A DNA stretch of 64,000 bases from contig NZ_CP054140.1 of assembly GCF_016446285.1 (NCBI RefSeq), positions 1,345,501-1,409,500 of the forward strand, given 5' to 3'. Position numbers and translations under genes: made by a program. Positions 6,724 through 39,224 of the stretch are shown here, piece after piece. Position 1 is the stretch's first letter. The number at the start of each line of letters is the position of its first letter. This DNA comes from Desulfobulbus oligotrophicus (GTDB taxonomy: Bacteria > Desulfobacterota > Desulfobulbia > Desulfobulbales > Desulfobulbaceae). The notes under the pieces were generated by a model. That model did no database searches and had not been told where the DNA came from. It worked only from the letters and a program-made list of their open reading frames with translations.

Positions 6724-7443
6724 ATGGCTGATAGTCCTGCGATTGGTTGTGCCCGCCCGACCGGAGGTCTGGTAGGTCAACCACATGAAACAGAAGAACA
6801 ACAGACAGCACCACCAGTAAAGGAGGAAAAAAAGATGATTCAGGTAGGAAAGCCAGCCCCTGATTTTGCGGCTCCCGCATATCATAAGGGCCAGTTCACC
6901 TCATTTAAACTTTCTGATCACTTGGGAAAATGGATTGTCCTGTGTTTTTATCCAGGTGATTTCACTTTTGTTTGAGCAACCGAAATATCGGCGGTCGCCG
7001 ATCATTATCCGAAGTTTCAAGAACTTGGTGTTGAAGTGTTTTCCGTGAGTGTGGACAGCGTTTTTGTTCACAAGATGTGGGATGACCACGAACTGTCTAA
7101 AATGGTCACCGGAGGTATCCCTTTCCCCATGCTTTCCGATGGTGGAGGCAAGGTTGGGGAAGCGTATGGCGTGTACGACCCGGACGCCGGCGTGGAAAAC
7201 CGCGGTCGATTCATCATCGATCCCGACGGCATTATCCAGGGGTATGAAGTGCTGAGTCCACCGGTGGGCCGATATGTGGCCGAGACCATACGCCAGATAC
7301 AGGCCTTTCAACTTGTACGGGCAACTAAGGGCGCTGAAGCAACTCCCTCAGGTTGGAAGCCGGGCAAGCTCACCCTCAAGCCGGGTCCGGATTTAGTCGG
7401 TAAGGTTTGGGAGGTCTGGAAAGTCAGCATGGAATCCGAGTAA
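6724..7443 (+). CDS. prxU: Selenocysteine-containing peroxiredoxin (PrxU-like)
   Basis: The frame is continuous from 6724 to 7443 except for TGA at 6973-6975, which falls exactly at the peroxidatic position of the peroxiredoxin motif: GDFTFV-U-ATE where relatives have DFTFVCPTE. Reading it as Sec gives 239 residues with normal AhpC/Prx sequence on both sides ([32 protein letters not shown]). Peroxiredoxins reduce hydrogen and organic peroxides. Two starts have strong ribosome sites: ATG 6724 after AAGGAGGAAG and ATG 6835 after AAAGGAGG. From 6835 the Sec is residue 47, the usual place. The extra 37 N-terminal residues contain a CARPTGG motif whose Cys might act as resolving partner. Confidence 0.9.
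6987..7002 (+). promoter_or_regulatory. SECIS-like hairpin of the peroxiredoxin gene
   Basis: ATCGGC (6987-6992) and GCCGAT (6997-7002) pair perfectly around a GGTC loop that begins 17 nt after the TGA. Bacterial SECIS elements are short hairpins at about this distance, with a GGU-containing apical loop bound by SelB. It lies inside the coding frame, as expected in bacteria. Confidence 0.8.
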
Positions 7444-36407: not shown

Positions 36408-38207
36408 ATGAGACAGCAGTTTATTCGTAATGTCGCTATTATCGCCCACGTTGATCACGGTAAAACCACCCTGGTTGATCAGTTATTTCGTTCAAGTGGT
36501 ATGTTTCGTGATAATCAACATGTGGCCGATCGGCTGATGGATTCCATGGAGATTGAGCGTGAACGCGGTATCACCATTACTTCCAAAAACGGTTCGTATA
36601 CGTATGGTGATTATCAGATCAATATTATCGACACTCCCGGTCATGCCGATTTTGGTGGTCAGGTGGAACGGGTGCTGCATATGGCAGATGGAGCACTCCT
36701 GTTGGTGGATGCGCAAGAGGGGCCGATGCCGCAGACTTTTTTCGTGGTAAAGAAGGCACTGGCTGCCAAGTTGCCGATCCTGGTGGTGATCAACAAGATC
36801 GACAAACCTGCAGCCCGGTGCGATTGGGCTGTGGATCAGGTTTTCGGCCTGCTGGACCGGCTCGGTGCTCCGGATCATATCCTGGACTTTCCGGTGGTCT
36901 ATGCCTCTGCCAAGGCCGGCTACGCTGTTCATCAACCGGATGACCCGGTGACTGTGGACACTGGTATGCAGACTGTTTCCGAGATGATCATTCATCATGT
37001 GCCGCCACCATCCGGCAGTCCTGATGCCCCTTTGCAGCTGCAGATCAGCACCATTGACTATTCACCGTATCTTGGCCGTTTAGGGATCGGCAAACTTTTG
37101 AATGGTCGACTCAGTCTGCGTACTCCGCTGGTGGTTTCCCGCCGTGACGGGACCATTAACCCCGTACGGATCAGCAAGATCTTCGGCTTTGCGAGTAACC
37201 AGAAGGTACCGGTCGAAAATGTACAGGTGGGGGATATTGTAGCTGTTGCCGGTATGGAAGATGTGACCATCGGCGTTACCTTTACCGACCCCACCAATCC
37301 TCAGCCATTGCCGCTCATTGAGATTGACCCGCCCACTATTTCAATGAATTTTATTCCCAACGACTCACCTTTTGCCGGTCAGGACGGCAAGTATGTCACC
37401 TCCCGTCATCTTGAGGAACGCCTTTCCCGCGAGGTTCTCTCCGATGTGGCTCTTCAGGTCGAACCGCTCAGCAACGAGATCGGTTATCGGGTTTCCGGTC
37501 GCGGCGAGCTGCATCTTTCTATTCTTATTGAAAAGATGCGTCGTGAAGATTACGAGTTTCAAGTGACTCGTCCGCAGGTGATTGTTCGCGAGATTGATGG
37601 TCAGCTCATGGAACCGTATGAAGAGCTGTTTGTGGATGTTGATGAAAAGTTTCAGGGAGTGGTGATTGAAAAACTTGGCAGGCTTAAAGGGCTGCTCATC
37701 GACATGCAGGTCGAGAAAGAAATGACCCGTATGAAGTTTAAGGTGCCGACCCGTGGCCTGCTGGGGTATCGTTCCGTGTTCATGACCGATACCCATGGTA
37801 TGGGGGTGATGCACTACGTTTTTGCAGAATGGGGCCCCCATGCCGGAGAGATTCAGAATCGGATCAACGGTGTGATGGTTGTTAAGGAGACATGCACGTC
37901 AGTCGCCTATGCGTTGTTTAATCTCCAGGAACGAGGTAGACTTTTTTTAGGTCCGGGCGTTGCTGTTTACTCCGGCATGATCATCGGCGAACATTGTCGG
38001 CCTGCTGATCTGATTGTAAATCCGGCCAAAGGCAAAAAATTGACCAACATTCGTGCATCCGGAACGGATGAGGCGGTTATACTTGTTCCACCGGTAGACA
38101 TGAGTCTTGAGGACTGTATCTCGTATATCAATGATGATGAGTTGGTGGAGATCACCCCTAAGGCGATACGGTTACGTAAGAAGAAAGGGGTAAGGATAAG
38201 AGGATAA
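36408..38207 (+). CDS. typA: Ribosome-associated GTPase TypA/BipA
   Basis: 599 residues with the translational GTPase signature: AHVDHGKTTLVDQLF (P loop), RGITITSKN, DTPGHADFGGQVER and NKIDKP, followed by EF-G-like domains and the TypA-specific C-terminal domain. TypA/BipA assists late 50S assembly and is needed under cold or other stress. The ATG at 36408 follows CAGGAG. The gene is followed 28 bp later by a small CxxU membrane protein gene. Confidence 0.96.
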   Translation: MRQQFIRNVAIIAHVDHGKTTLVDQLFRSSGMFRDNQHVADRLMDSMEIERERGITITSKNGSYTYGDYQINIIDTPGHADFGGQVERVLHMADGALLLVDAQEGPMPQTFFVVKKALAAKLPILVVINKIDKPAARCDWAVDQVFGLLDRLGAPDHILDFPVVYASAKAGYAVHQPDDPVTVDTGMQTVSEMIIHHVPPPSGSPDAPLQLQISTIDYSPYLGRLGIGKLLNGRLSLRTPLVVSRRDGTINPVRISKIFGFASNQKVPVENVQVGDIVAVAGMEDVTIGVTFTDPTNPQPLPLIEIDPPTISMNFIPNDSPFAGQDGKYVTSRHLEERLSREVLSDVALQVEPLSNEIGYRVSGRGELHLSILIEKMRREDYEFQVTRPQVIVREIDGQLMEPYEELFVDVDEKFQGVVIEKLGRLKGLLIDMQVEKEMTRMKFKVPTRGLLGYRSVFMTDTHGMGVMHYVFAEWGPHAGEIQNRINGVMVVKETCTSVAYALFNLQERGRLFLGPGVAVYSGMIIGEHCRPADLIVNPAKGKKLTNIRASGTDEAVILVPPVDMSLEDCISYINDDELVEITPKAIRLRKKKGVRIRG

Positions 38208-38235
38208 ATAGCTTTCTTTTCTTCAGGGAGGTTTC

Positions 38236-38403
38236 ATGAAAGAGTTGTTGCTTATCGGCGTGGCATTCGTTGTCGGTATTGCCGCCTTTATAGTTCTTTT
38301 GAAAAAAATCGGTGATGGCTGTACTCCCTGACTGCTGCTCTATGGCTCCGTAGGTGCGGGGCTGTTGACCTATGCGGTGTTGAAATTTTTCCTGTCCGGT
38401 TAA
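38236..38403 (+). CDS. Small membrane selenoprotein candidate with CTPU motif, 55 aa
   Basis: ATG 38236 has an excellent ribosome site (AGGGAGG-TTTC). The frame reads a membrane helix (residues 4-22), then KKIGDG-Cys29-Thr-Pro-TGA32, then continues in frame through a second helix (LLLYGSVGAGLLTYAVLKFFL) to TAA 38401-38403, two bases before the next gene's ATG. Reading the TGA at 38329-38331 as Sec gives a two-helix hairpin protein with a CxxU redox motif at the membrane face. A SECIS-like hairpin follows at 38345-38362. Gene callers would miss it. Family unknown to me; a thiol/selenol oxidoreductase role is inferred from CxxU. Confidence 0.75.
38345..38362 (+). promoter_or_regulatory. SECIS-like hairpin of the CxxU membrane protein
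   Basis: GCTCCG (38345-38350) pairs with CGGGGC (38357-38362), one G-U pair included, around the loop TAGGTG. The GG of the loop begins 22 nt after the TGA. Distance, stem length and GGU-containing loop agree with bacterial SECIS hairpins, and with the element in the peroxiredoxin gene of this window. Confidence 0.65.
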
Positions 38404-38405
38404 GT

Positions 38406-39224
38406 ATGATGGCAACCATCAATCAAAATCGTCAGCTACAGGATCCGATTGTCTCAATACGGGCACGAATTGCGGAAAAACGCATTTTTGAGGCCCGATT
38501 TCTCTTTCGTCAGTTTGGAGACGTGATTGCACCACAGCAAAAACAGAAGCTGGCCGATGAACTGGCAGCCGTACTGACAGAAGCGGAACAGCTGTTGCAG
38601 CGTGCCCGGGCCCATGTTGCAGGTGGTGAACGTGCCCAGGCTGAGCAACTGTATCAAGAGATAGAAAAGGTGGTCATCGATATGCCCGGGGTTGCCGATG
38701 AGGCACGGGCATTGGCCGGAGCAGCGGTACTGACGTTGAAAATGAGGGCATCGGCTCCACTTGTCCCGGATCCGGAACAGCAGTTCAGCATCGATCCGGA
38801 ACCCCGGATTAGCAATCAGAACCATATAAGATTCAGAAAACCGCAGTCAAAAACACGAGCTGCACGATGGCTGGTGGTCTGCCTGGTAGCCGGTGCAGGT
38901 CTTTTAACAGCCTCTTTGCTCGTACTTTGGTACAAAAACGTTACAGATGCTGATTTTTCAATCCCTTTTCTGAGCCGGCCATCTGAAAAGATTCAGATCA
39001 GGCCGATTATAACGGCAGACCATCCTGCGATGGAACAGGCAGCTCCGGATACGGTTGTCTCCGGAACGAATGGACGGGATGATTCAGAAATGCAGGCAGC
39101 TGTTACTTTGTCTCCTTCGTCTGCAGACACACCGGTCTCGGCACCGGCTGGAAAGGTCCGGGTGCACCCTCTTTCCACCCTGGAGGTGGGTACCCTGCAG
39201 GTGGAGCAATCAACAGGGCAATGA
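38406..39224 (+). CDS. Hypothetical membrane protein with helical N-terminal domain
   Basis: 272 residues, unrecognised family. The first ~115 residues are helical and charged, with repeat-like character (LLQRARAHVAGGERAQAEQLYQEIEKV), followed by a membrane helix at about 155-177 (WLVVCLVAGAGLLTASLLVLWY) and a ~95-residue Ser/Thr/Pro/Ala-rich tail probably in the periplasm. Its ATG starts two bases after the stop of the CxxU selenoprotein, so the two are almost certainly coexpressed and may cooperate. ATG 38409 is an equal alternative. Confidence 0.75.
   Translation: MMATINQNRQLQDPIVSIRARIAEKRIFEARFLFRQFGDVIAPQQKQKLADELAAVLTEAEQLLQRARAHVAGGERAQAEQLYQEIEKVVIDMPGVADEARALAGAAVLTLKMRASAPLVPDPEQQFSIDPEPRISNQNHIRFRKPQSKTRAARWLVVCLVAGAGLLTASLLVLWYKNVTDADFSIPFLSRPSEKIQIRPIITADHPAMEQAAPDTVVSGTNGRDDSEMQAAVTLSPSSADTPVSAPAGKVRVHPLSTLEVGTLQVEQSTGQ

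Follow-up and report, generated by a model that had tools for sequence, protein, structure and literature searches.

Comparative sequence evidence for an apparently undescribed family of two-helix membrane selenoproteins in Desulfobulbales

A short reading frame in Desulfobulbus oligotrophicus, interrupted by a TGA at its 32nd codon, raises two questions: is this UGA decoded as selenocysteine (Sec), and what might so small a membrane protein do? The frame lies in a window of 64,000 nucleotides, i.e., the whole stretch of DNA that was analysed (contig NZ_CP054140.1, forward-strand positions 1,345,501 to 1,409,500), and all coordinates count from its first letter. With TGA read as Sec, positions 38236-38403 encode 55 residues, MKELLLIGVAFVVGIAAFIVLLKKIGDGCTPULLLYGSVGAGLLTYAVLKFFLSG*, from an ATG at 38236-38238 that follows an AGGGAGG to a TAA at 38401-38403, two bases before the ATG of the next gene at 38406. 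A first-pass annotation made from the letters alone had described a strong ribosome site, a TGA flanked by hydrophobic stretches, a Cys29-x-x-U32 motif and a stop two bases before the next gene; each of these elements could be located, and both flanks of the TGA are hydrophobic. The features, all on the forward strand, are as follows.

6835-7443, forward strand: Sec peroxiredoxin PrxU with motif TFVU, Sec codon at 6973-6975 (NF040737, 391 bits)
36408-38207, forward strand: bipA/typA (TIGR01394, 830 bits), ending 28 nt upstream of the selenoprotein gene
38225-38231, forward strand: ribosome-binding site AGGGAGG, 4 nt 5' of the start codon, read directly
38236-38403, forward strand: putative selenoprotein gene of 55 codons and a TAA stop; its product is a two-helix membrane protein containing C29-T-P-U32
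38320-38322, forward strand: codon of Cys29, the partner of Sec in C-x-P-U (absent from loci L137, L139 and L219)
38329-38331, forward strand: codon 32, an in-frame UGA decoded as selenocysteine; two genomes of a single genus have UGC (Cys) here instead
38342-38365, forward strand: bSECIS-type hairpin within the coding region (helix 2), 10 bp stem, loop AGGU at 38352-38355
38406-39224, forward strand: uncharacterised ORF of 272 aa downstream of the selenoprotein gene

The genome of D. oligotrophicus contains selA (619 bits), selB (347.7 bits, over the cut-off) and tRNA-Sec (71.5 bits, over the cut-off), so the absence of selAB that would have refuted the reading was not encountered. The window also holds a second selenoprotein, as had been suspected: the Sec peroxiredoxin is real and matches the PrxU family. 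Among the 213 Desulfobulbales genomes that bear the two-helix gene, selB was detected at E 1e-60 or better in 184; 24 of the other 29 have selA and 4 more have tRNA-Sec, so that at least one of the three was found in 212 of 213. The sole exception (G156), in which none of the three was detected, is a draft that is 94% complete. When presence of the gene was compared with selB alone over 258 genomes, the correlation was weak (Fisher p 0.07), owing to the many incomplete drafts in which either the gene or selB is missing; adding selA and tRNA-Sec to selB resolved this signal. Genus g11, five genomes of the same family (G053-G057; three of them >90% complete), lacks selA, selB, tRNA-Sec and the gene, and appears to have abandoned selenocysteine use entirely. 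Five genomes (G640, G645, G649, G653 and G665) show a second, weaker tRNA-Sec-like match of 77 nt at 50-52 bits, perhaps another kind of tRNA.

A single-protein search of 74 genomes of the window's own family returned 59 matches, and the in-frame TGA stands at the same place in 59 of 59. Profile A1, built from 54 of these matches, recovered the gene from 213 of the 258 Desulfobulbales genomes; restricted to good-quality genomes, presence rises to 136 of 149, and 59 of 69 genera are represented. In a second order of the phylum the gene occurs in 23 of 101 sampled genomes, with 27 UGA copies and some genomes holding two or three. Orthologues in Desulfobulbales carry TGA at the Sec codon throughout except in one genus (g52), and neither TAA nor TAG occupies that codon in any homologue from the own family, Desulfobulbales or the second order; one copy (G195) appears degraded by an extra TAA. 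The annotation had proposed that homologues ending at the UGA would refute the reading and that Cys or Sec should be sought at position 32. Essentially every homologue continues past the UGA, which is kept nearly everywhere and replaced by UGC in a single genus.

No convincing relative was found in the phylum-wide sample beyond these two orders, and plasmids, viral contigs and PDB sequences gave no match. Other phyla were covered by one single-sequence scan only, by which absence from them is not shown. A match in Haloferula (L048) was rejected as a chance similarity within a longer membrane protein, and weak matches without TGA (L138 in G706, and others at E 0.001 or weaker) were not accepted as relatives. 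L138, a 307-residue frame matching over CTPGLFYYRHMGTG at E 0.003 with Gly at the Sec position, could be either chance or a remnant.

The family consensus reads MKELxxxGxAxxAGIxAFxLIxxxxGxDCxPULLxYGSxGVGLxVYxxLKxLF, and C29, U32, Y36 and G42 are invariant in 66 aligned, wide-ranging rows. Three further homologues (L137, L139 and L219, with NMSU, DISU and GRPU) keep U and lack C29. Two of them, L137 and L139, are extra paralogues in G685, a genome with three copies, and bear a hydrophilic tail (KQPDK..ETHG.KT). In distal helix 2 the first, second and third codon positions show 0.50, 0.28 and 0.64 differences per site, similar to the 0.45, 0.36 and 0.63 found before the UGA, and far lower inside the hairpin (0.21, 0.12 and 0.31). 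The substitution pattern 3' of the UGA is, as inferred from these alignments, that of coding DNA.

The hairpin downstream of the UGA provides a separate line of evidence. In the window it has a core of 8 bp, or 10 bp with the outer pairs (38342-38351 with 38356-38365; -12.6 kcal/mol). The core stem starts 12 nt after the UGA codon (about 10-12 nt for the hairpin) and the AGGU loop 20 nt after it. The first-pass annotation, which gave 6 bp and 22 nt for a hairpin with a GGU-containing loop, understated the length of the stem. Two classes can be distinguished, namely GGCUCCGU-AGGU-GCGGGGCU in Desulfobulbales and GGCCCGCU-GGG-AGCGGGCU, with a 3-nt loop, in the second order. Across 63 distinct sequences of the first class, 93.3% of cells pair, two-sided changes number 32 cells against 9.6 in shuffles, and covariation is 0.333 against 0.227 (sd 0.012) in shuffles and 0.06-0.19 in register-shifted controls; the second class likewise exceeds its control (0.262 vs 0.139). 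RNAalifold recovers the same core stem unguided, and folding energy lies below that of synonymous redraws (mean z -1.37; upstream control -0.46).

By the published bSECIS criteria (PMC13188914), 78 of 92 homologue Sec-UGAs qualify, whereas of the 39 TGAs that terminate these genes only 1 does; chance levels are 3.2% for TGA triplets of the window (85 of 2630) and 11.7% for synonymous-codon redraws. The strict model thus misses 14 of the 92 homologues. Because many homologues themselves terminate in TGA, two UGAs on one short mRNA must be told apart, and the predicted hairpin, with rare exception (1/39), accompanies only the first of them. Since the hairpin lies within the codons of helix 2, the RNA fold sets part of the protein sequence, namely Ser38-x-Gly40-x-Gly42. 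The strongest pair (columns 22/29, A-U or G-C) links codon 39 with codon 41, and the residues change in step with it: Ile39 accompanies Val41, while Val or Ala at 39 accompanies Ala41. A SECIS element that overlaps the second helix thus visibly shapes the protein.

Genus g52 (G218 and G219; loci L217 and L218) offers what the alignments identify as a natural Sec/Cys pair. Its two genomes carry TGC (Cys) at the Sec codon, in the stretches ...DDGCPACLAVNAAIAAALLAIYLLNRFF and ...EDGCPMCLALNAAIAAALLTLYILNRYLG, and the Cys-form sequences are GCPACLAVNAAIAAA in G219 and GCPMCLALNAAIAAA in G218. Orthology of the Cys form is supported because in G218 mtnA begins 3 nt after it, an arrangement shared with many Sec forms. 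Both genomes still have selA, selB and tRNA-Sec. Neither of the two Cys forms meets the bSECIS criteria (0/2), and residues 37, 38, 40 and 42, which the hairpin encodes in Sec forms, are all Ala; the small residues that the SECIS imposes on Sec forms are released once Sec becomes Cys. As far as the comparison reaches, Cys is the only replacement in a clear orthologue, never Trp or Arg.

Taken together, comparative evidence shows codon 32 to be decoded as selenocysteine by SelB and tRNA-Sec under direction of the hairpin, and we regard it as nearly certain that the gene at 38236-38403 is a genuine selenoprotein gene, albeit without protein-level proof of Sec.

What the protein does is much less constrained. 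AlphaFold2 places helices at residues 2-24 and 32-54 with modest confidence (pLDDT 69-71, pTM 0.37), which, with the two hydrophobic stretches, agrees with the two-helix membrane layout suggested earlier. A fold search was uninformative, as its matches were all nonspecific helical hairpins (a chain of the Ost6 complex at Z 5.5 and an integral membrane kinase at Z 5.3). Under the positive-inside rule, positively charged segments favour the cytoplasmic side. The N-end carries a net charge of -0.1, the turn +1.5 and the C-end +0.9, so the turn with C29 and U32 is favoured in the cytoplasm, although this inferred placement rests on a modest charge bias. The product may therefore adopt a helical-hairpin topology in which the two ends lie outside and the short positive turn lies inside; Cys29-x-Pro-Sec32 would then sit on the cytoplasmic side, at the N-end of helix 2.

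C-x-P-U resembles C-x-P-C redox active sites and sits at the start of helix 2, where Sec at a helix N-end is expected to be a reactive selenolate; for these reasons we favour a membrane redox relay. In this reading Sec32, as a rule joined to Cys29 through a reversible selenenyl-sulfide, would serve as a redox centre anchored in the membrane and relay electrons between thiols of the cytoplasm (thioredoxin-like reductants) and some partner in the membrane. That partner could be a larger membrane enzyme, the quinone pool, or a hydroperoxide of lipid or protein. The Cys-Sec couple is apparently not obligatory, because C29 is missing in three Sec-bearing homologues. The CxxU redox motif named by the first-pass annotation is hence present, and its redox role plausible but unproven. 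A thiol/selenol relay facing the cytoplasm is the likeliest function, inferred only, and we give it about an even chance; the composite explanation, a genuine selenoprotein serving as a membrane redox centre, we consider probable. At this size the protein lends itself to total synthesis or to expression in a Cys-mutant form, which makes its chemistry testable.

A second possibility is that in a real selenoprotein Sec32, with Cys29, is a ligand for soft metals or metalloids (Hg, Cu, Zn, As) and that the small helical hairpin carries metal or assists a transporter, much as MerT/MerF proteins do. It would account for paired soft ligands at the membrane surface and for the loss of Cys29 where Sec remains, and metal binding has been proposed for several bacterial selenoproteins linked to transporters (PMC13188914). 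However, the mercury transporters of Pfam and NCBIfam remain unmatched, no metal-resistance genes recur alongside (the recurrent neighbours are bipA, mtnA, or der/dnaX), and the gene is vertically conserved over the order, whereas resistance genes are usually patchy. We therefore hold metal binding to be possible but unlikely.

The gene neighbourhood bears on a further reading, in which the selenoprotein serves another enzyme as a small subunit or as its anchor in the membrane, perhaps in connection with methionine salvage (MtnA), and Sec makes a redox-sensitive contact. Among 143 distinct loci, bipA lies directly upstream in 66 and mtnA directly downstream in 36, with gaps of 3-190 nt and in many families of Desulfobulbales. 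In three loci of the second order the gene order is mtnA-der-gene-dnaX (dnaX named from sequence; MtnA and Der confirmed), mtnA thus standing two genes upstream; an association with mtnA in both orders suggests that the arrangement is ancient. The selenoprotein gene is tightly coupled to mtnA at loci L140-L152 and L180-L228, in many families of the order. Such association would favour a subunit role, but bipA rather than mtnA is the neighbour in family f6 and in the family of D. oligotrophicus, most loci of the second order have no recurring neighbour, and MtnA is a soluble isomerase for which no membrane partner is known. The 272-aa downstream ORF is found beside the gene in some members of the D. 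oligotrophicus family only. Housekeeping neighbours such as bipA and mtnA disclose neither function nor mechanism, and the subunit reading appears improbable.

The remaining alternatives deny selenocysteine altogether, and we consider both very improbable. That the UGA is an ordinary stop ending a 31-residue one-helix peptide, with the downstream part untranslated, draws on termination being the default for UGA and on the lack of expression data, but is contradicted by the coding substitution pattern and conserved helix after the UGA, the Sec/Cys pair with an open frame, the covarying SECIS and the lack of TAA or TAG at that codon in the homologues found. Read-through by a near-cognate tRNA (e.g., Trp) would by itself also conserve the frame, but it fits poorly with Cys as the only replacement in a clear orthologue, with the bSECIS-type hairpin, and with the absence of the gene from genus g11, which is without Sec machinery.

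The selenoprotein family is apparently undescribed. The annotation's remark that no characterised family has this layout holds in Pfam, NCBIfam and a 2026 catalogue. No Pfam or NCBIfam family matches any of the 54 members, a curated cut-off is never reached, and the best matches are at chance level (E 0.006 or weaker) to unrelated membrane segments. Neither the 119 prokaryotic selenoprotein families catalogued in the 2026 review nor the new families of deep-Sep include one listed with this motif and architecture. The supplementary lists of older surveys fall outside this comparison, which takes in the hypothetical families of the Olavius symbiont selenoproteome only through later reviews. A selenoprotein kept in >80% of genomes of a whole sulfur-cycling order is without a Pfam/NCBIfam model or catalogue entry; its shortness, its hydrophobicity and the UGA that interrupts its frame are the probable reasons.

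Several known systems bear comparison. PrxU shares the genome and the Sec machinery but differs in having an unrelated fold, a TFVU motif and a family already named. With MerT/MerF, including a predicted selenoprotein MerT-like form (PF02411, C/SxxU), the family has in common a small helical membrane protein with Cys/Sec paired near a helix; the 54 members gave no Pfam match to it at E up to 10, and no mer neighbours were seen. In DsbB/VKOR, too, a short turn leads into a transmembrane helix whose N-end bears a CxxC-type motif. E. coli DsbB (CVLC) aligns in register but insignificantly (hhalign probability 0.6%, E 0.1), which is a lead only. DsbB has four transmembrane helices and two periplasmic Cys pairs, whereas here two helices and one Cys/Sec pair are predicted, the motif is cytoplasmic by charge bias, and Sec replaces the second Cys. 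It is conceivable, though speculative, that the protein is a minimal membrane selenoenzyme, a DsbB/VKOR-like single hairpin whose one Cys-Sec pair exchanges electrons with menaquinone at the cytoplasmic surface, Sec being kept in nearly all members since Cys is insufficient in sulfidic anaerobes.

The closest parallels in decoding are the bacterial CxxU selenoproteins (SelW-like, AhpD-like and glycine reductase A; PMC13188914 Table 1), which share the in-frame UGA with a bSECIS just downstream, the Cys three residues before Sec and a Cys-form homologue. They are soluble domains, often thioredoxin-like, and have no profile match to this family, in which 50-60 residues form a two-helix membrane hairpin and Cys forms are very rare. 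The low-confidence model has two helices only and no thioredoxin-like alpha/beta fold, for which 55 mostly hydrophobic residues are too few. Being neither thioredoxin-like nor provided with more than a very few Cys forms, unlike most listed families, the protein bears on why some lineages keep Sec. What sets it apart is apparently the combination of a known decoding mechanism with a new protein architecture.
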